A DNA stretch of 64,000 nucleotides from Verrucomicrobiales bacterium (GTDB lineage: Bacteria; Verrucomicrobiota; Verrucomicrobiia; Verrucomicrobiales; DEV007), in the NCBI GenBank assembly GCA_030730365.1, contig JANQVJ010000036.1, forward strand, positions 1-64,000. Direction: 5' to 3'. Positions 43,876-56,143 of the stretch are shown here, in pieces (position 1 is the first letter of the stretch; every line of letters starts with the position of its first letter). The notes beneath the pieces were generated by a model. It did no database searches. It saw only the letters and a program-made list of their open reading frames with translations, and was not told the origin of the DNA. The position numbers and the translations under genes are program-made.

Positions 43876-45282
43876 CTAAGCCTTTTTCGGCTTCGTCACG
43901 AGGTGCCCGAGCATCTCGTCGACCGAGAGGTGAAGAAGCCGGGCAGCCTTCTCGGCACTACCGGTATCGCGCTGAGCCGTCTCGACGAGCAGCCGCATCG
44001 CCAGCTCGACCGGCGATTCTCCTGAAATCTGCGCGGCCCGCAAAAATCGTTCCGCCGAACGCTCCAGCACAGTACGCTCGTTATCGCTCCCGCCGCTTTG
44101 ATCAAAGGGCAAATCTCCGGGCAGGAGAACATTCCCCGTGGCCAGCACGCAGGCCCGCTGAACCAGATTTTCGAGCTCGCGGACATTGCCGGGCCAGTGA
44201 TAGCCCTCGAGCATCTCGACGGCTTCTTTGGAAAACTGCATCGCCCGGTTTTTCCCCATCTCGGTACGCTTTTGCAGGAAATACTCGGCGAGCAGCCGCA
44301 CATCCTCGACCCGTCGCCGGAGCGGCGGGATGTGAATGCGCACGACATTAAGACGGTAAAAAAGATCTTCGCGGAAGAGGTTGTTCTCCACCTCCTCCTC
44401 AAGGCGCTTGTTGGTCGCGGCGAGGATGCGGACATCACTGTGGAGGGTCTGATTGCCCCCGACACGCGAAAACTCGCCGCTCTGGAGCACGCGTAGCAGC
44501 TTGCTCTGCACCTCGAGCGGCATGTCCCCGATCTCGTCGAGGAAAAGAGTGCCTCCATCGCACTGCTCGAAACGTCCCACCCGCTGATTCACCGCCCCGG
44601 TGAAAGCGCCCTTCTCATGACCGAAGAGTTCGCTCTCAAGAAGATTGCTCGGGATCGCGGCGCAGTTGATCGCGACATACTCAGCCTTGGCCCTGCGGGA
44701 AAATTTGTGGATCGCATTCGAGACGACCTCTTTGCCGACCCCGCTCTCGCCCGTGATGAGCACCGGAGCGTCGGCACGGGCGACGCGGCCGATCAGTTTG
44801 TAGACATCCTGCATCGCAGGGGAGCGCCCGATGATGAGATCGTCGGTCGGCTGTGGCGGAATGATAGGTTCGGACTTCGATCTGTCCTCTGCCGCCCGCA
44901 TCTGTTCCGCGGCCTGGAGGGCACGCTCCGCGACCTGGCGGAGCTCGAAATTGACCGATTCCCGGCGCAGCACGTCGAAGGCCCCCAGTCGCATCGACTC
45001 GATCACCGCATTGGTCGAGTGAACGAGCCCGTTGAGAATCACCATCGCATTCGGATTCGACATGCGGATGCGCTTGAGCAACTCCACCCCGTCGAAAGGA
45101 CGGAGGTGGAATTCCGCAATAAGGAGATCGGCACGGCGATCCGTGAAAAGCTTCAGCGCCTCATCCGAGGAACGAGTCGTTAGAACTTCCACCGTGTCTG
45201 CCTCCAAATGCTTGGACGCCCATTCGAGGAAATCCGGGTCGTTATCCGCGATAACGACCGTTTGTTTTTGGGTATCTTCCAT
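43876..45282 (-). CDS. NtrC-family sigma-54 activator with atypical receiver
   Basis: This is a 468-residue protein from MEDTQKQ (an upstream in-frame Met adds 27 poor residues). The receiver-like domain (1-120) has the acidic pair DNDPD, but the expected phospho-Asp is Glu in [13 protein letters not shown], and the late Lys seems to be Arg (DVLRRES). The AAA+ domain is complete: GESGVGKE, the sigma-54 loop [19 protein letters not shown] and the arginine-finger region [11 protein letters not shown]. The C-terminal helix-turn-helix is weak ([19 protein letters not shown]). It could drive the sigma-54 promoters found in this window (inference). Confidence 0.88.
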
Positions 45283-45385
45283 ATAGGGTTGAACCTTAGT
45301 GCGCAAAGGCTGGACACTGGCCTTGTCTACGCCGCGGGGGGCTGGATAATAGCACAATCCCATATTTTTTCTGAGATTTTAGCAA

Positions 45386-46725: not shown

Positions 46726-48123
46726 ATGTCCGCCTCCACCAAAAACGCCTCCATCCGCGAAGTCGCCCTCTACTATCTTCCCGTCGAAATGCGGATGCCG
46801 CTCAAGTTTGGCAATCAGATCGTCGAATCCGTCACCTGCGCCCGCGCCCGCATCGTCGTCGAGGGCACCGATGGCAAAACCGCAGTCGGCTGGGGCGAGA
46901 CCCCCCTCGCCGTCGCCTGGGTCTGGCCCTCGTCGCTCACCTACGAAGAGCGCCACACCGCGATGAAGGACTTCACCCTCCTCATTGCGAAAACGCTCAA
47001 CGAATGGCGCGAGACCGGGCATCCCCTCGAGCTCGGCTTCGACTTCATCGAGCACCGTCTCCACGCCTTGCAGGATAAATTCAATTCTACCCGCCCGGCC
47101 CAATCCGCCCTGCCTCACCTCGCCGCGCTCGTCTGCTTTTCGCTCTTCGACATCGCCGTCCACGATGCCTACGGGCAGCTCCACGAGTGCCGCACCTACG
47201 ACACCTACCACGCCGACTTTATGTCCCGCGACCTCGGCGACTTCATTGAGCCGCTCGAGGGAATTGCTTCGTTCAAAGGCAAATACCCGTCCGATTTTCT
47301 CATCGCCAAGCCGCAGCTCCAACTCCCCGTCTGGCACCTCGTCGGAGGACTCGATCCGCTCGACGACGGCGAACTCACCGGCAGTGAGCCGCAAGATGGT
47401 TACCCCACTACCCTCATCGACTGGATCACCCGAGACGAACTCGATTGTCTGAAGGTGAAACTGCGCGGCAACGACGCTGCCTGGGACTACGATAGACTTG
47501 CTAAGATCGGCCGCATATCACGTGAAATGAATGTGACCTGGCTCACGACCGACTTCAACTGTACCGTGACCGATCCCGCTTACGTGAATGACATCCTCGA
47601 CCGACTGAAACTCGAAGACCCCGTCACCTATCAGAAGATCCTCTACGTCGAGCAACCCTTCCCCTACGACCTCGAAGCGAACCGCATCGACGTGCGCAGC
47701 GTCAGCGCGCGCAAGCCGCTCTTCATGGATGAAAGCGCGCACGATTGGCGCTTTGTCAGGCTTGGCAGAGAGCTCGGCTGGACCGGGGTCGCGCTTAAGA
47801 CCTGCAAGACCCAGACCGGAGCTCTTCTCAGCCTTTGCTGGGCCAAGGCCCACGGCATGACCCTGATGGTGCAGGACCTCACCAACCCCATGCTCGCCCA
47901 GATTCCGCACTTCCTCCTCGCCGCCCACGCCGGCACGATCATGGGAGTCGAGTCCAACGGGATGCAGTTTTACCCCGAAGCCAGCACCCCGGACCGGCTC
48001 GTCCATCCCGGCCTTTACCGGAGGAAAGGAGGGATCCTCGACGGCTCGACCCTCTCCGGTCACGGTTTCGGGTATCGGGTCGAGGAGGTCGGGAGAGAGT
48101 TGCCGGAGGCGGTATCCTGTTAG
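46726..48123 (+). CDS. Enolase-superfamily (mandelate racemase/muconate lactonising type) protein
   Basis: This 465-residue enzyme has an N-terminal capping domain and a barrel with the catalytic set visible: LKVKLRG (KxK base), TTDFN (Asp ligand), YVEQPFP (Glu ligand), LFMDESAHD (third ligand pair) and GVALKTCKTQTG (second Lys). It is longer than usual (360-400) because of an insertion around residues 85-210. It probably racemises, epimerises or dehydrates an acid sugar or dipeptide; the substrate is unknown. Confidence 0.85.
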   Translation: MSASTKNASIREVALYYLPVEMRMPLKFGNQIVESVTCARARIVVEGTDGKTAVGWGETPLAVAWVWPSSLTYEERHTAMKDFTLLIAKTLNEWRETGHPLELGFDFIEHRLHALQDKFNSTRPAQSALPHLAALVCFSLFDIAVHDAYGQLHECRTYDTYHADFMSRDLGDFIEPLEGIASFKGKYPSDFLIAKPQLQLPVWHLVGGLDPLDDGELTGSEPQDGYPTTLIDWITRDELDCLKVKLRGNDAAWDYDRLAKIGRISREMNVTWLTTDFNCTVTDPAYVNDILDRLKLEDPVTYQKILYVEQPFPYDLEANRIDVRSVSARKPLFMDESAHDWRFVRLGRELGWTGVALKTCKTQTGALLSLCWAKAHGMTLMVQDLTNPMLAQIPHFLLAAHAGTIMGVESNGMQFYPEASTPDRLVHPGLYRRKGGILDGSTLSGHGFGYRVEEVGRELPEAVSC

Positions 48124-48434
48124 GGTGGCTTCCAGAGAGAATCGCATCCTAGACGAGAGGCGGATAAGCCGTTCCAAAGAACATCGTATCTGCCCTCCAT
48201 CGATCGCCCCTTTGTTGTTCCGGAATACCTCATGATCATTTGATTGGAATCCTGGTTCGCTGGTGATTCATGGAGTGGATCTCGTAACGAAAAATGCTGC
48301 CGACTTCGCTGCGTCAGGAGTAAACAAGATCAATCCCTGGATCTGAATTCTTCGCGAATTTGGGTAGGACCGCGCATCTAGTCCAAAAAATCGGAGTCAC
48401 AAAAAATCCAAAAATTCATCCTATTCCCCCGGCT

Positions 48435-48450
48435 TGGTATTACTTTTGCT
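48435..48450 (+). promoter_or_regulatory. Sigma-54 promoter motif of the guanidine/urea operon
   Basis: TGGTAT-TACTT-TTGCT has GG and GC separated by exactly 10 bases and a full -12 TTGCT. The -24 part deviates at two positions from TGGCAC. The start point would be near 48461, leaving only about 9 bases before the ATG at 48470, so the message would be almost leaderless. Confidence 0.5.
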
Positions 48451-48465
48451 AAGAAAGTTAATACC
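48436..48465. promoter_or_regulatory. NikR-geometry operator GTATTA-N16-TAATAC
   Basis: GGTATTA (48436-48442) and TAATACC (48459-48465) form a perfect inverted repeat. The inner hexamers are 16 bases apart, the same architecture as the E. coli NikR operator GTATGA-N16-TCATAC. It ends 4 bases before the NikR-like start codon and covers the sigma-54 motif, so autorepression is likely. Confidence 0.7.
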
Positions 48466-48469
48466 TAGT

Positions 48470-48937
48470 ATGTCCGAATCCGACCCCATCAAGAGCGAAG
48501 GCGTAAAGCGCATCAGCGTTTCTTTGCCTCCCGCGGTCTTTAACGAGCTCGACCGGCTCGTCGTGACGCGGGGATTCGAGAATCGTTCGCAGGCGATCTC
48601 GGAGATGATCCACCAGAGTCTCACCGAACATTATCAGGACCAGGGGGACAGGCTCATGGCGGGGACGATTACCCTCTTTTACGACGAATCGAAGCCCGGT
48701 CTGCTCCAGGCGCTCGCGGAAATCCAGCGGGCCCACATCGACGAGGTCATCAGCTCACAGCACGTGCTCCTCGAGGACGATCACACCATGCAGGTCATCC
48801 TCGTACAGGGGCCCGCGACGCGGCTAAAGCTCATCGCGGACGAACTGATCACCTGCAAAGGCGTGCGCTCGGGGAAACTCACGATCTCGTCAGCGATCCT
48901 TCCGCCCATCCACGGACGCGATTTTAAAGACTCATGA
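48470..48937 (+). CDS. NikR-like ribbon-helix-helix regulator without the nickel site
   Basis: This 155-residue protein has an N-terminal ribbon-helix-helix ([19 protein letters not shown], then [13 protein letters not shown]) and a C-terminal ACT-like domain as in NikR. ISSQH matches the STQH of E. coli NikR (His76). The following strand that carries HxH and Cys (His87, His89, Cys95) is about 11 residues shorter here and has neither, while [24 protein letters not shown] aligns well again. High-affinity nickel binding is therefore unlikely. Start ATG 48470 was chosen; a TTG further upstream lies inside the operator. Its stop overlaps the next gene's start (ATGA), coupling it to nitrogen genes. 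It may sense guanidine, urea or another small ligand. Confidence 0.85.
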
Positions 48938-49650
48938 AGACCCTCTACGAAAAAACTCTCTCCGGAGGCGGCATGTGGTCGCAGACTATCGGCCGCGGCA
49001 AAGTCCTCCGACTCACCGATCTCGAAGGAGGGGCCAATATAAGCGCGCTTCTCTACAATGCGGCGGAGCCCATCGAGCGCTACAACATGCCGGACACTCT
49101 GAAGGGCCAACACACCTTCCAGCTCACTGCCGGGCACTGCCTCCACTCGGACATGGGGCGCCTCTTCTGCTCACTCATTCACGACACCGCCGGCTGGCAC
49201 GACACCGTCTGCGGCTGCACCGATGCTGCTCTCGTCGCAGAAAAATTCGGGACTCTCTCTTATCAGGAAGCCCGCAACGATTTCTATCGAAACGCCCGCG
49301 AGAACTTCCTCATCGAACTGGCCAAACACGGTCTCGGAAAACGAGACATCGTTCCGAACCTGAATTTCTTTTCCAAAGTCGTCGCCGACGAATCCGGTCA
49401 GCTCACCTGCGTCCCCGGCGCCTCTCCGGCCGGCGCCGTCCTCGAGCTGCGCTTCGAGATGGACACGCTCGTCGTCCTCACCGCCTGCCAGCATCCCCTC
49501 GACCCCGCCACGACCTATGCACCCAAGCCGGTTTTGCTAAGCGTCTCTGCCGCCCCGCCCATCACTCCAGACGACCTCTGCATCCACTCCTGTCCCGAGA
49601 ACGAAAGAGCCTATCAGAACACTATCGACTACTACGCGCTGCGCGCCTGA
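48934..49650 (+). CDS. cgdA: DUF1989 protein UAAP1 (carboxyguanidine deiminase subunit)
   Basis: This 238-residue DUF1989 protein is of the kind named urea-amidolyase-associated protein 1. UAAP1/UAAP2 pairs were later shown to be the two subunits of carboxyguanidine deiminase, which converts carboxyguanidine to allophanate and ammonia. Metal-binding-type motifs [27 protein letters not shown] and [13 protein letters not shown] are visible. It is translationally coupled to the NikR-like gene. The assignment of A rather than B is from length and order. Confidence 0.8.
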
Positions 49651-49711: not shown

Positions 49712-50347
49712 ATGCTCACCGAATCCACTCTCGACCCGGCCGCGGCCTTCTACCGCAAAGTCATCGCGGCGGGGGACCACTGGGTCCATCTCGTCAAAGC
49801 GGGACAGCATTTCCGAATCCTCGATCTGGAAGGCAATCAGGCCGCCGATACGCTCTTCTACAACGCGCACGATCCCGAAGATCGCTACGCCGCTGATGTC
49901 ACGATACGCCGCCAGGGCAGTCTCTACCTCACCACCGGTAGCAGCCTGATGTCCACTGGTGGCACGACCCTGCTCACGATCGTGGCCGATACCTGCGGCC
50001 GCCACGACACCCTCGGCGGAGCCTGCTCGCGCGAATCAAACACGATGCGCTACGCCCTTGAGAAAGAGCCCATGCACGCCTGCCGCGACATCTTTCTCTG
50101 CGGCATCCACGAGTGGGGCAACGGTCTCGGGAAACGCGACATTACGAACAACATCAACTTCTTCATGAACGTCCCCGTCACTCCGGACGGAAAGCTCACT
50201 TTCGCCGACGGCATTTCCGCCCCAGGTCGCTACGTCGAGATGCGCGCCGAGTGCGACGTCATCGCCCTGATCTCCAACTGTCCCCAGCTTAACAATCCCT
50301 GCAACGCCTACAACCCGACTCCGGTCGAAGTCTTCCTCTGGGACTGA
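49712..50347 (+). CDS. cgdB: DUF1989 protein UAAP2 (carboxyguanidine deiminase subunit)
   Basis: This 211-residue paralogue of the preceding protein is the UAAP2 type. It shows [34 protein letters not shown] (Cys/His metal motif), [18 protein letters not shown] and [20 protein letters not shown]. It probably forms a heteromer with UAAP1. It ends 14 bases before the carboxylase start, so all three would be made together. Confidence 0.82.
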
Positions 50348-50361
50348 ATCTTTTTCCTGAC

Positions 50362-53300
50362 ATGCTCACCAAAGTGCTCATTTCCAATCGCGGCGAGATC
50401 GCCTGCCGCATCATCCGAACGCTGAAAAATCTCGGCATTTCCTCCGTCGCCGTTTACTCCGAGGCCGACCGTGACGCGCCCCATGTCAGCATGGCGGACG
50501 AGGCCTTTCTCCTCGGTCCCGCCCCCGTTGCGGCCTCCTATCTGAACACGGCCCGCATTTTTGAAGTGGCGGCCATGACTGGATGCGACGGCATTCATCC
50601 TGGATACGGACTGCTTTCGGAAAACGCCAACTTTGCCGAGGCCTGCGAAGCCCGCGGGATCGCCTGGATCGGACCGACCCCCGAGCAACTGCGCCGCTTC
50701 GGGCTCAAGCACACTGCCCGTGCCATCGCCAAAGAGACAGGGGTCCCTCTCCTTGAGGGCACGCCCCTGCTCGCGAATGCGGAAGAGGCGGTCGTTGCCG
50801 CCACGGCCATCGGATTCCCCGTCATGCTCAAGAGCACCGCGGGCGGTGGCGGCATCGGCATGGAAGTCTGCCATGATACAAAAGGGTTGGTCGAGGCATT
50901 CAACAGGGTTGCCTGGGCGAGTCAGGCAAACTTCGGCGACTCGGGAATCTTTCTGGAAAAATTCATCGAGCGCGCCCGCCACGTCGAGGTGCAGCTCTTC
51001 GGTGACGGGGAGGGCATGGTCGTCGCGCTCGGGACACGCGACTGCTCGGCGCAGCGGCGCAATCAGAAGGTCATCGAAGAGACGCCCGCCCCCGGGTTTT
51101 CGCGGAGCGAAGCGCCCGGCCTCTTCGAAGGAGCCGCGCGGATGGCCGCCTCGCTGAATTATCGCTCTGCCGGCACGGCCGAGTATCTCGTCGATGCCGC
51201 GACGGGAGATTATTATTTCCTCGAGATCAACACGCGTCTCCAGGTCGAGCACGGTATCACCGAGGCGGTCACCGGTGTCGATCTCGTCGAGTGGATGGTG
51301 AAACTCGCCGGTGGCGAGCCCATCGATTATTCCTTCAGCGAGTCGGGCCACGCGATGGAGGTGCGGCTCTGTGCCGAAGATCCCGGCAAAGATTTCCAGC
51401 CCTCGTCGGGGCTGCTCACCGAAGTCATCTTCCCCGACGAGGTGCGCTGCGATCACTGGATCTCAAGCGGCAGCGAGGTGCCGGCGAACTACGACTCGCT
51501 CATCGCCAAGCTCATCGTAGAGGCCCCGACCCGCGAGGAGACTCTGCAAAAAATGATCACCGCTCTCGCGGCGACGTCCGTCGCCGGGATCGAGACGAAT
51601 CTCGAATACCTGCGCCAGGTCATTTCGTCGGAGATCTTTTTCCGTCCCGGGGCGATCAGCACGGGTTCGCTTGCCACCTTCAGCTACGACGCGCCGACCA
51701 TCGATGTGCTTGCCTCGGGGACGCAGACGACGGTGCAGGACTACCCCGGACGCATCGGCTACTGGGAAGTCGGGATCCCGCCGTCGGGTCCGATGGATCA
51801 TCTTTCCTTCCGACTCGCGAATCGGCTCGTCGGCAATCCCGAAGGCTCTGCCGGTCTCGAGATCACCGTCTCGGGCCCGACCCTGAAGTTCAATCGTGCG
51901 ACCGAGATCGCCCTGACAGGTGCACCACTGCCCGCTACGCTCAACGACGGAACCGTCGCACACGGCGTGCCGGTGAAGATCGTCGCTGGGGACATTCTCA
52001 AGATCGGATCAGGCGGCAGCCAACCCGGTGTGCGGGCCTATCTCTCGGTCAAGGGCGGGCTCGAGGTGCCCGATTACCTCGGGAGTAAATCGACCTTCAC
52101 CCTTGGTCAATTCGGCGGTCACGGCGGTCGCGCCCTCCGCACCGGCGACGTGCTTCATCTCGCGGAAGCGCCAAGTGGACCGTCCAGTTCCGCGCCGGCA
52201 GGGCTGCTCCCGGCGCTCGGACGGCACTGGGACATCGCCGTGCTCTACGGTCCCCACGGAGCGCCCGAATTTTTCACCGTCGAGGACATCGCGATGCTCT
52301 TTTCGACCGATTGGAAAGTGCACTACAACTCCGCCCGCACGGGAGTGCGCCTCATCGGACCCAAGCCGACCTGGGCGCGAGAGGATGGCGGCGAGGCGGG
52401 GCTGCACCCTTCGAACATTCATGACAATGCCTACGCCGTTGGCACGATCGACTTCACCGGCGACATGCCGGTCATCCTCGGGCCCGACGGACCCAGCCTC
52501 GGCGGCTTCGTTTGTCCCGCCACCATCATCGAGGCTGACCTCTGGAAGATCGGTCAGGTCGACTCGGGTGACACGGTGCGCTTTTATCCCGTAGCGGAAA
52601 AAGAGGCACGTCTTTTGCGCGAACGTCAGGATCAGCTCGTCGCGACCTTGTCCCTCCCACCCGATACCCACGAACCTGTCGTCGAGCCGATTCCGGCGAC
52701 CACCGCGATCCTCGAGGAACTGCCCGGCGTGACGATTCGCGCGAGCGGCGAGAGTTTTATCCTCGTCGAATATGGTCCGATGAAACTCGACCTGAACCTG
52801 CGCTTCAAGGCTCACGTGGTCTACCAGTGGTTCAGAGATCGCGCCGTCGCGGGCATCCTCGATCTCACCCCGGGGATACGTTCGCTCCAGATCCATTTTG
52901 ACAGCCGCCGGCTCCAGCGTGAGGAAGTCCTCGCTCTCGTGCGCGAGGCCGAGGGGGCGATCACCGATCTTGAATCCATCGAGGTGCCCGCGCGCATCGT
53001 GCATCTACCGCTCTCGTGGGACGACCCGAGCACCCAGGAGGCCATACAGAAATACATGCAGTCGGTCAATCCCGAGGCGCCCTGGTGTCCAAGCAATATT
53101 GAATTTATCCGCCGCATCAACGGGCTCGAGTCCATCGAACAGGTGAAGGAAATCGTCTATTCCGCCGCCTACTGCGTGATGGGACTGGGCGATGTCTACC
53201 TCGGCGCGCCCGTTGCGACGCCGCTCGATCCGCGGCATCGTCTCGTCACCACGAAGTACAATCCCGCCCGAACCTGGACGCCCGAGAATGCGGTCGGGAT

Positions 53301-53943
53301 CGGCGGGGCCTACCTCTGCATCTACGGCATGGAGGGACCGGGCGGGTATCAGTTCGTCGGACGCACTGTGCAGATGTGGAATCGTTTTCACGTCACCGAG
53401 TCCTTCACCAAAGAAGAGCCCTGGCTGCTGCGTTTTTTTGACCAGATCCGCTTCTACGAAGTCTCGACTGAAGAGCTGCAGCAACTCCGCGCCGATTTTC
53501 TGATTGGCCGTTGGAACCCGCTCATCGAGGAGACGAGCTTTTCCCTGCGGGACTACAACCGCTTTCTCGAGGAAGAGGATGCGGAGATCAGCGCCTTCCG
53601 CGAAACACAGCAGTGTGCCTTTCAGGCCGAGCGGACCCGCTGGGAGGAGGCCGGTATTTTCAAAAAGGTCATCGAGACCGCCGAGGAAGTCATCACCGTG
53701 GTCGAGAGCATCGTCCCCGAAGGCTGCGAAGCGGTCGAGGCCGCTGTAGCCGGCAATGTCTGGAGGCTCCTCGTCGAACCCGGCGCAACCGTCACCGCCG
53801 AGCAACCCGTCCTCATCCTCGAAGCAATGAAAATGGAGATCGCGATTTTTGCTCCGGGCGAGGGGATCGTCGCGGAAGTCTTTGTGACGGAAGGCAGCTC
53901 CGTGAAGCCCGGTCAGGCGTTGATGGCGTTGCGGATGGGGTGA
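50362..53943 (+). CDS. Urea/guanidine carboxylase (biotin-dependent)
   Basis: This 1193-residue biotin enzyme carboxylates urea or guanidine. Domains in order: biotin carboxylase (1-450; ATP lid [20 protein letters not shown]), carboxyltransferase parts of the AHS2 and AHS1 type (about 455-760 and 790-1090; [66 protein letters not shown]) and a biotinyl domain with Lys1157 in EAMKME. There is no fused allophanate hydrolase, unlike yeast Dur1,2. Because UAAP1/UAAP2 precede it, guanidine is the more likely substrate; many bacterial enzymes labelled urea carboxylase prefer guanidine. Confidence 0.93.
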
Positions 53944-54006: not shown

Positions 54007-54213
54007 ATGGAAATTGTCTTCAGCGTGACGCAAGAGGGTGACGGCGGTTATGTCGCAGAGTGCCTCTCTCATGATATTTTCACAGAAGGAGATTCATGGG
54101 ATGAGTTGCGAACAAATGTTAGGGAAGCGGTTTCCGCATTCTTCTTCGATCAACCTAAACCCGACGCCATTCGTTTGCATCTTGTTCGGGATGAGCTGCT
54201 GACGGGTGCATGA
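54007..54213 (+). CDS. HicB-like antitoxin
   Basis: This 68-residue protein has the HicB partial RNase H fold: GGYVAECLSHDIFTEGDSWDELRTNVREAV, matching the GGYVAxxPxLxGxxTxGDTxEEAxxN pattern. The C-terminal DNA-binding part is very short. Normally it binds the HicA mRNA interferase. Here the following hicA reading frame is broken, so the antitoxin is orphaned. The pair interrupts the order carboxylase-allophanate hydrolase. Confidence 0.8.
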   Translation: MEIVFSVTQEGDGGYVAECLSHDIFTEGDSWDELRTNVREAVSAFFFDQPKPDAIRLHLVRDELLTGA

Positions 54214-54290
54214 AGTTGCCTCGAGATCTGAGTGGACATTCTGCGTTCTGTTTCGGAGGTGAAGGGAGTAGGGAAAGAAGAAATTCTTAG
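54210..54290 (+). pseudogene. Truncated hicA toxin gene
   Basis: The ATG at 54210 overlaps the hicB stop (ATGA). It encodes MKLPRDLSG, the typical first residues of HicA/YcfA toxins, but the next 17 residues (HSAFCFGGEGSRERRNS) are unrelated and end in TAG. The catalytic His of the double-stranded RNA-binding fold is missing, so no toxin is made. Confidence 0.65.
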
Positions 54291-54333
54291 ATCGCGATAG
54301 ATTCCCACACTTTCCCCGCTTCCCCACCGCGAA

Positions 54334-54349
54334 TGGCACGGGCCTTGCG
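54334..54349 (+). promoter_or_regulatory. Sigma-54 promoter of the allophanate hydrolase gene
   Basis: TGGCAC-GGGCC-TTGCG is an exact match to the sigma-54 core TGGCAC-N5-TTGC with GG and GC 10 bases apart. Transcription would begin near 54360, giving a leader of about 25 bases before the ATG at 54386. Confidence 0.7.
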
Positions 54350-54385: not shown

Positions 54386-56143
54386 ATGTCTCCTGACCTC
54401 TCTCTTACCTCTCTCCGGTGCGCCTACAGCGACGGATCTCTCACGCCCCGCGCTCTCGTGTCGCAGCTTCAGGAAAAGATCGCCGGCTCTGATCCGAAGA
54501 TCTGGATCGCCCTGACGCCGGGCGCACGGCTCGAGGAAATTCTTTCCCGCCTCGACGAGGCCGCTCCCGATTCGCTGGCGCTCTACGGCGTCCCTTTCGC
54601 GATCAAGGACAACATCGACCTCGCCGGGGTCCCCACGACCGCCGCCTGCCCTGACTATGCCTATGATCCTGACAAAGACGCCACCGTCGTCTCGCGACTG
54701 ATCGCGGCGGGGGCGATTCCGTTGGGGAAAACGAACCTCGATCAGTTCGCGACCGGTCTCGTCGGGGTGCGGTCTCCCTACGGCGTGCCGGAGAATCCCT
54801 TTAACCCCGCCTTCATTCCCGGCGGTTCGTCATCCGGTTCCGCCGTGGCGGTGGCGCGGGATCTGGTGAGCTTTTCCCTCGGCACAGACACGGCCGGATC
54901 GGGTCGCGTCCCCGCCGGTCTCAACGAACTCGTCGGCCTGAAACCCAGCCTCGGCCTCCTCTCGACCTCGGGCGTCGTCCCCGCCTGCCGCACGCTCGAC
55001 TGTGTCTCGATTTTCACGAAAAGTGCCGCCGACGCCGACGCCGTGTTGAAGGTCGCCGCCGGATACGACGCTGACGATGCCTACTCGCGCGTCCCGACGC
55101 AGTCGCCCTGGTGGCGGCCCGATGCCTTCACCTTCGGCGTGCCCGCGCCGGATCAGCTCGAGTTCTTCGGCAACAGCGAGGCGGCGAGTCTTTTTGAAGC
55201 CGCCGTCGCACGGCTCGAGTCCCTCGGGGGAAAGAAGGTCACAATAGACTTTGCCCCTTTTCTCGAGTCGGCCCTGCTCCTCTACGAAGGCCCCTGGGTC
55301 TCGGAGCGCTTTGCGGTGATTGAGGAGTTCATGCGGGAACATCCCGAGAGCCTCCATCCCGTGACGAAGTCCATTATTGCGAAGGGCGGTGCTCCCCGCG
55401 CCGTCGACGGGTTCCGTGCCCAATACAAACTCCGCGACCTGAAGCGTCGCGCCGAGGCGGTCATGAGTGCGATCGACCTCATCGTCACGCCCACGGCGGG
55501 GACGGCCTACACGATTGCTGAAGTCGAGGCCGAGCCGGTCAAGCTGAACTCTAATCTCGGTTACTACACCAATTTCATGAACCTGCTCGACCTCAGTGCT
55601 TGCGCCATTCCCGCGGGTCGGCTCGTAGCCTCGGGCATGCCCTGGGGCATCACGCTGATCGGTCCGGCCTTTGCGGAAAAAGCGCTCCTAGGCCTCGCCG
55701 GACGATTCATGGACGAGCCTGCCGTTGAGACGAGCCTGCCGACAGATTGGATCGAGGTCGCGGTTTGCGGGGCTCACATGCGCGGTCTGCCGCTCAACTG
55801 GCAACTCGCGGATCGCGGTGCGGTTTTTCTCGCTACGGATGAGACCGCCCCGGCCTATCGCCTGCTCGCGTTGCCTGCCGTCGGCGGCCTGCCGCCTCGT
55901 CCGGGCCTGATCCGCGAAGAGAACGGCGTCGGAGCTTCCATCCTTCTCGAGCGCTGGGCCGTGCCCGCGTCGCAATTCGGTTCTTTTGTCGCGGGGATTC
56001 CCTCACCGCTGGGCTTCGGAAAACTCGAGCTGAAGAGCAGACGCTTCGTCACCGGTTTTCTCTGCGAGTCCGCCGTTCCCGAAGGATCGCGCGAGATCAC
56101 CGAACTGGGTGGATGGCGCGCCTTTCTTGCGGAAAAGTCGTAG
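54386..56143 (+). CDS. Allophanate hydrolase
   Basis: This 585-residue amidase-signature enzyme splits allophanate into CO2 and two ammonia. The catalytic Lys is in GVPFAIKDNIDLAG, and the Ser-cisSer-Ser core is in GGSSSGSAVAVA and TDTAGSGRVPAG. A C-terminal domain (about 460-585, starting WIEVAVCGAHMRGLPLNWQL) is the separate domain of AtzF/Dur1-type enzymes that helps decarboxylation. It completes the route from the carboxylase upstream but has its own sigma-54 promoter. The gap to the next gene is 80 bases. Confidence 0.93.
   Translation: MSPDLSLTSLRCAYSDGSLTPRALVSQLQEKIAGSDPKIWIALTPGARLEEILSRLDEAAPDSLALYGVPFAIKDNIDLAGVPTTAACPDYAYDPDKDATVVSRLIAAGAIPLGKTNLDQFATGLVGVRSPYGVPENPFNPAFIPGGSSSGSAVAVARDLVSFSLGTDTAGSGRVPAGLNELVGLKPSLGLLSTSGVVPACRTLDCVSIFTKSAADADAVLKVAAGYDADDAYSRVPTQSPWWRPDAFTFGVPAPDQLEFFGNSEAASLFEAAVARLESLGGKKVTIDFAPFLESALLLYEGPWVSERFAVIEEFMREHPESLHPVTKSIIAKGGAPRAVDGFRAQYKLRDLKRRAEAVMSAIDLIVTPTAGTAYTIAEVEAEPVKLNSNLGYYTNFMNLLDLSACAIPAGRLVASGMPWGITLIGPAFAEKALLGLAGRFMDEPAVETSLPTDWIEVAVCGAHMRGLPLNWQLADRGAVFLATDETAPAYRLLALPAVGGLPPRPGLIREENGVGASILLERWAVPASQFGSFVAGIPSPLGFGKLELKSRRFVTGFLCESAVPEGSREITELGGWRAFLAEKS

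Follow-up and report, generated by a model that had tools for sequence, protein, structure and literature searches.

In the window, the whole 64,000-nt stretch of Verrucomicrobiales DNA analysed here, the gene of a NikR-like regulator is preceded by an inverted repeat and followed by genes of nitrogen metabolism (Table 1). What would a protein of the NikR fold control at such a place, through which promoter, and in response to which signal? An initial annotation had proposed that the repeat is a NikR-type operator lying on a sigma-54 promoter.

Table 1. Features of the regulator locus, with their positions in the window
Feature	Coordinates	Strand	Basis
NtrC-type enhancer-binding response regulator, 3 kb away	43876..45363	-	Sigma54_activat + Response_reg; below NtrC cut-off
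Sigma-54 -24/-12 element TTGGTATTACTTTTGCT, GG-N10-GC spacing	48434..48450	+	Consensus match, spacing scans, one rpoN in genome
Operator (predicted), inverted repeat GGTATTA-N16-TAATACC	48436..48465	+	Sequence match; conserved in window and seven near relatives
NikR-like ribbon-helix-helix regulator, 155 aa	48470..48937	+	Pfam NikR_C 6.8e-24; NCBIfam NF003381; P. horikoshii NikR alignment
UAAP1 (DUF1989), presumed carboxyguanidine deiminase subunit	48934..49650	+	TIGR03425 334 bits, cut-off 206
UAAP2 (DUF1989), presumed carboxyguanidine deiminase subunit	49712..50347	+	TIGR03424 324 bits, cut-off 285
Guanidine-type carboxylase (annotated urea carboxylase)	50362..53943	+	TIGR02712; 3va7 alignment
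Second sigma-54-like element TGGCACGGGCCTTGCG, near-consensus, directly before allophanate hydrolase gene	54334..54349	+	Pattern match
Allophanate hydrolase	54386..56143	+	TIGR02713 741 bits

A predicted operator and a sigma-54 promoter element share the same DNA

As the initial annotation had stated, GTATTA-N16-TAATAC forms a perfect inverted repeat at 48436-48465 (GGTATTACTTTTGCTAAGAAAGTTAATACC), directly before the NikR-like gene, whose ATG (48470) lies 5 nt downstream. Around this 6-nt core the arms extend to 7 nt. Without mismatch, the repeat occurs once in the window and once in the 3.86-Mb genome (pattern scan); when up to two mismatches are allowed, 14 genome sites are found, against 31 for a reversed control pattern. 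A regulon elsewhere in the genome was considered and rejected, there being no excess of weaker operator sites. The half-site spacing had rightly been likened to that of NikR: GTATGA-N16-TCATAC is given as the E. coli NikR operator in passages of PMC7055735, and this exact sequence is present in several relatives (L043, L047 and L049, for example).

The sigma-54 element, TTGGTATTACTTTTGCT, has its GG at 48436-48437 and its GC at 48448-48449, and the left arm and centre of the repeat are common to both sites. Its predicted +1 falls near 48461, nine bases 5' of the ATG. In scans with the -24/-12 consensus of sigma-54 promoters, written TGGYAYN5TTGCW, it is the sole match without mismatch in the window, where six matches are found at up to one mismatch (2.3 expected). 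The genome holds one copy of rpoN; the element combines the GG-N10-GC spacing and consensus of a sigma-54 promoter with conservation and the presence of the cognate sigma factor gene. No sigma-70-type promoter was found in 48100-48500, a weak null since shuffled sequences are expected to give only 0.7. No operator was seen beside the second element, TGGCACGGGCCTTGCG (54334-54349).

Matches in a single genome are not decisive alone; operator and promoter are judged real because they are conserved and stand up to spacing controls. Among eight near-relative loci, the window included (L013, which is cut off, was left out), the 33-nt site of the window's nearest clade shows 84% mean pairwise identity, and the 60 nt upstream 36%. 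L007/L101, a MAG of the Akkermansiaceae, belongs to the same genus as the window. Further afield, relatives of the regulator (E <= 0.001) occur in 70 of 288 genomes of the order, and a phylum-wide draw gave a regulator relative or a canonical NikR in 137 of 387 genomes.

When no half-site was assumed, 7-nt arms spaced 14 nt apart were found in 35 of 67 upstream regions, for a shuffle mean of 9.2 and a maximum of 15. Scanning of related genomes with defined half-sites showed that the repeat is conserved before orthologues: inverted half-sites are separated by N16 in 44 of 94 non-redundant upstream regions, by N17 in 9 of 94, and by any other spacing in 0-1. The letters of these half-sites, which also served for the count of 78 operators below, were taken from the sequences after inspection, unlike the dyad scan (35/67), so that only the comparison between spacings is meaningful. 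Similarly, GG[CT]-N8-TGC[AT] is present with the correct spacing in 47 of the 94 upstream regions, with wrong spacings in 0-9 and on the reverse strand in 10. The two sites also go together: a sigma-54 element lies within 60 nt of the operator, on the same strand, for 55 of 78 non-redundant operators from Verrucomicrobiota and Proteobacteria (wrong spacings 0-6, reverse strand 10). The strict forward pattern is absent at the remaining 23, some of which have weaker or other-strand elements and some none visible. The 94 regions were thinned from 172 that were long enough, and the 78 operators from 155 sites. Non-redundant means sharing few 12-mers; relatives remain and some genomes were counted twice under different locus ids, so these counts are not independent events.

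A loose form of the dyad is nothing unusual in 64 kb (at up to three mismatches there are 6, with 2.05 expected). A chance origin of the palindrome or of the sigma-54 match is nevertheless ruled out by conservation and the spacing controls, its residual probability being negligible. The interpretation of the initial annotation, that a repressor of the NikR fold would block a sigma-54 promoter directly, is supported at the level of sequence.

The operator takes several positions around the promoter

That the repeat covers the sigma-54 element holds for the window (48434-48450); elsewhere, overlap is limited to the nearest clade and the genus of L064. These account for 4 of the 55 paired operators. 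In 16 cases the operator begins 29-33 nt before the GG of the -24 element and ends 1-5 nt before it, while in 24 it begins 15-34 nt after the GG and thus extends from just past the -12 element to over or beyond the start site. Eight begin 53-55 nt before the GG; seven of these are the outer pair of three half-sites, and the eighth, in L067, ends about 25 nt before the GG. The operator of L023 begins 41 nt before the GG, and in L123 and L078 the nearest sigma-54 match lies 49-59 nt before the operator.

In the commonest verrucomicrobial arrangement, seen in 35 of 46 operator-promoter pairings, the operator stops 1-5 nt short of the GG. This arrangement is also that of the window's genus outside the nearest clade (e.g. 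L015, L016, L021 and L024), from which it follows that the overlap in the window is a local variant. An operator past the -12 element is the proteobacterial arrangement (Thiogranum, Parvibaculum, Halothiobacillus and others), where most of the operons open with a transporter gene located 3-5 kb ahead of the regulator; it is found in Verrucomicrobiota too, for instance in Haloferula (L139), 3.9 kb upstream of the regulator. In Puniceicoccaceae, by our reading, the sigma-54 element is divergent and faces away from the operator, which lies upstream of it at a distance of about 24 nt.

Seven loci (L015, L016, L017, L021, L022, L024 and L051) carry three half-sites in a row before the sigma-54 element, the extra one being GTATGA/GTATCA-like and placed 16-17 nt in front of the operator pair. 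Since it was the outer pair that survived thinning, the promoter distance counted for these loci refers to that pair; their inner pair stands directly next to the promoter.

Would a protein bound at these sites help the polymerase or exclude it? An activator or DNA-bending helper of the sigma-54 promoter could find polymerase contact or bending within reach from the abutting position of the 35 pairings, and the third half-site further upstream in some loci would suit it. The same operator is however found on the promoter in the window clade and L064, and in Proteobacteria and others it covers the start site or lies beyond it; a single activating geometry cannot fit all three positions, which makes this explanation quite improbable. 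The scatter of the operator around the core promoter argues rather for occlusion, and the positions fit those of a steric repressor. The arrangements of L067, L123, L078 and the Puniceicoccaceae are less consistent with plain occlusion.

A strict sigma-54 match is present within 156 nt upstream for 63 of 131 non-canonical proteins and absent for 68; for some of the latter the promoter lies before a transporter gene kilobases away, and in others none was found. L176/L195 has two composite sites, one before the transporter gene and one 575 nt after the regulator's anchor codon. Such composite sigma-54 and operator sites after the regulator gene, apparently before UAAP1, are found at +569 in L182 and at +575 in L176/L195. 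Most measured loci with a match have their predicted sigma-54 start some 0-9 nt ahead of the first in-frame ATG/GTG, and nearly leaderless messages would result.

A NikR fold without nickel ligands

The window protein has the NikR fold, with E-values of 6.8e-24 for NikR_C (Pfam) and 1.9e-28 for P. horikoshii NikR, and NF003381 accepts it narrowly (109.5 bits for a cut-off of 105). Canonical NikR binds nickel through His76, His87, His89 and Cys95 (passages of PMC7055735). At these positions, alignment to P. horikoshii NikR places Arg, His, Leu and Thr in the window protein. The protein therefore shares with NikR the fold and an operator of two half-sites 16 nt apart, and lacks the four-ligand set. 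Its operon (UAAP1, UAAP2, carboxylase, allophanate hydrolase) does not correspond to the nickel uptake or nickel enzyme genes that are NikR targets.

This loss extends beyond the window. Ligands were compared in 151 proteins from the loci, a protein being called linked when a UAAP or carboxylase match stood anywhere in the locus stretch, a link that short stretches can miss. The His-His-His-Cys set is found in none of 116 guanidine-linked relatives, compared with 18 of 35 unlinked ones (17 of 35 lack it). The ligand Cys is missing from all 116 linked proteins, several of which keep the three histidines (HHHT in 9, HHHY in 5). Looked at from the other side, the non-canonical relatives number 133, of which 116 have such a link; of the 17 unlinked ones, some come from short stretches and some from operons of a transporter and glutamine synthetase III type. 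Twenty distant relatives divide in the same way: the 15 unlinked all have the nickel set and the 5 linked all lack it. In a tree of 87 proteins (20 canonical, the 17 other unlinked ones in full and 50 drawn at random from the 116 linked, with the ligand columns kept), the 20 canonical rows stand apart from the rest with a branch support of 100/99. In L165, on a contig titled Verrucomicrobiaceae, the regulator groups with proteobacterial ones, which reflects either gene transfer or a misbinned contig. A change at the low-affinity metal site (Glu30 and Asp34 of E. coli NikR) was considered as a mark of the subfamily and rejected, since Gln stands at the first of these positions in 11 of the 20 canonical rows as well.

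An ordinary nickel-responsive NikR could be imagined to shut this nickel-free nitrogen route when nickel is plentiful, urease and guanidinase being used instead. Such a scheme makes attractive metabolic sense, the fold and the operator resemble those of NikR, and the NF003381 cut-off is passed, if narrowly. But three of the four ligands are replaced in the window protein, neither the full set nor its Cys occurs among the 116 linked proteins while 18 of 35 unlinked ones have the set, and the canonical rows split off on the tree, so this reading is highly improbable. Judged by its residues, the regulator does not belong to the known type of nickel sensor. If its relatives are also named by NF003381, the name of nickel regulator is likely to be wrong for more than 100 of the compared proteins.

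The first strand of NikR contacts DNA. In the canonical rows this strand is RFSIS-like, and here it is RISVS/RITVS-like. A similar operator precedes 6 of 18 canonical NikR genes of the phylum (L094, L198, L200, L204, L206 and L212), where it begins 47-57 nt before the anchor codon. A strict sigma-54 match is found upstream of none of these 18 genes, versus 63 of the 131 others. The operator is thus ordinary for the fold, the sensor and the promoter being what has changed. We conclude from these comparisons that the finding is real and has a wider setting: as far as sequence can tell, a NikR subfamily blind to nickel is associated, in two phyla, with the sigma-54 promoters of guanidine operons.

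The operon is of the guanidine type

The carboxylase of the window, a biotin carboxylase, has Asp697 where the Kluyveromyces urea carboxylase (structure 3va7) has Asn, the selecting residue, which we take to be N1330 of the yeast enzyme. Asp is conserved at this position in 87 of 87 carboxylases beside the regulator (L006-L180, some genomes counted twice). According to passages of PMC12186494, Asp rather than Asn marks a guanidine carboxylase, and by this published rule Asp697 identifies the window enzyme as one. Together with the presumed carboxyguanidine deiminase and the allophanate hydrolase, it would allow the operon to turn guanidine into ammonia.

Riboswitches, common though not universal in guanidine carboxylase operons, point to the same substrate. 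Guanidine-I or -II riboswitches lie within the same clusters, downstream of the regulator, in 8 of 23 loci scanned, all eight proteobacterial (L131, L137, L169, L162, L177, L183, L184 and L188), which supports guanidine as substrate. In the window, Rfam gave no guanidine riboswitch at the gathering threshold, and riboswitch control of its operon was accordingly rejected; none was found either in 13 verrucomicrobial loci, nor in the verrucomicrobial L095, L121 and L126. This suggests that in Verrucomicrobiota the regulator may do the job done elsewhere by guanidine RNA.

Two proposed signals at one promoter

Our main reading, to which we give roughly three chances in four, is that the NikR-like protein is an autoregulated repressor covering the sigma-54 promoter of its own operon, and that the guanidine operon is thereby under two-signal control. 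The 30-bp repeat would be the operator of the protein encoded 5 nt downstream. Bound there, the repressor would cover the core promoter and keep sigma-54 RNA polymerase off. The first signal would be nitrogen shortage, acting through an NtrC-like activator and sigma-54; the second would be a small compound of the guanidine route, guanidine perhaps, which on binding at the former nickel place causes the repressor to leave the DNA. The sequence itself shows the site and its conservation, the sigma-54 spacing, the loss of the nickel ligands and the gene content of the operon; binding of the protein to its site, repression and the identity of the ligand are what we infer here. A ligand-switched NikR subfamily repressing nitrogen-controlled guanidine use is the best reading of these data taken together.

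Nitrogen control is supported by rpoN: of 46 genomes chosen among those with the regulator, 45 have this gene, and the exception (G137) is a 96% complete draft. When sites were scored with the NtrC consensus, 12 of 13 proteobacterial loci (the 13 are gammaproteobacterial bar L195; the miss is L191) had their best NtrC-like match, a weak one, 71-116 nt ahead of the GG, and only 2 of these 12 scores beat every mononucleotide shuffle. No NtrC-like site was found in the three alphaproteobacterial and 14 verrucomicrobial loci scored. The NtrC-type gene 3 kb from the operon was considered as the cognate activator, a role that the data do not support.

The repressor could bind its site and answer to something unrelated to guanidine, such as general nitrogen status or another metal: the regulator is found without a guanidine carboxylase in some locus stretches, and three histidines are kept in several proteins (the HHHT and HHHY forms above). 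This is unlikely, if by no means far-fetched, given that UAAP or carboxylase genes accompany 116 of the 133 non-canonical relatives and that guanidine riboswitches stand inside the clusters of 8 loci. Three proteobacterial cases (L160, L190 and L151/L191) have the regulator, the operator and a type III glutamine synthetase, with no guanidine carboxylase in the stretch, whence the inducer may be a related guanidino compound and not guanidine. L190 and L191 also carry an NMT1-type transporter gene, to which L191 adds a gene of the creatininase family.

The wider proposal, put forward tentatively and at somewhat less than even odds, is that a NikR scaffold has become the sensor of guanidine or of an intermediate by reuse of the nickel pocket. 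Taking the place of the riboswitch in Verrucomicrobiota, such a sensor would be the first transcription factor made of protein to respond to guanidine, and its family would repress by covering sigma-54 promoters in two phyla. Under the main reading, the regulator is a candidate protein switch for the use of guanidine as a nitrogen source, with a predicted operator mapped in many species, and the family offers natural variants in which the repressor site stands before, on or after a sigma-54 promoter.

Relation to known systems

E. coli NikR is alike in fold and half-site geometry (operator in passages of PMC7055735) and unlike in that here the nickel ligands are lost, the operon serves nitrogen and not nickel uptake, and the promoter is of the sigma-54 type. 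The NikR sites predicted in delta-proteobacteria, GTGTTAC-N13/14-GTAACAC (passages of PMC545781), form a 27-28-bp repeat with very similar half-sites, but precede genes predicted to encode nickel transporters and hydrogenases. Guanidine riboswitches I and II likewise control guanidine-carboxylase operons, inside some of the same clusters, but are RNA and were seen neither in the window nor in the 13 verrucomicrobial loci. CdbA of Myxococcus (PMC7156744) is another ribbon-helix-helix DNA-binding protein with an organic ligand (c-di-GMP), and has a different role.

The deiminase subunits belong to DUF1989, presumably the same family as COG3665. Sigma-54 control of COG3665 genes in Proteobacteria has been predicted in a regulon survey (PMC12316311), in the main text of which nickel and CopG are absent and the passages of which contain no such operator. 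In a search of the open-access PMC literature, no description was found of NikR joined with guanidine carboxylase, urea amidolyase or urea carboxylase, of NikR with guanidine and a riboswitch, or of NikR with a sigma-54 promoter as its direct target; the initial annotation had likewise not recognised the arrangement as a described one.

Other genes around the operon

A small ORF (54007-54330) splits the carboxylase gene from the allophanate hydrolase gene and interrupts the operon; it had looked HicB-like by eye, an assignment that was dropped as Pfam gave no family. In L101, the 97% relative, no counterpart was found of the enolase-superfamily gene that precedes the operon in the window. After the operon, between 56224 and 58221, come carbon-nitrogen hydrolase and agmatine-deiminase-like genes, which score below the NCBIfam agmatine cut-offs and may form a second route for guanidino compounds beside the first.
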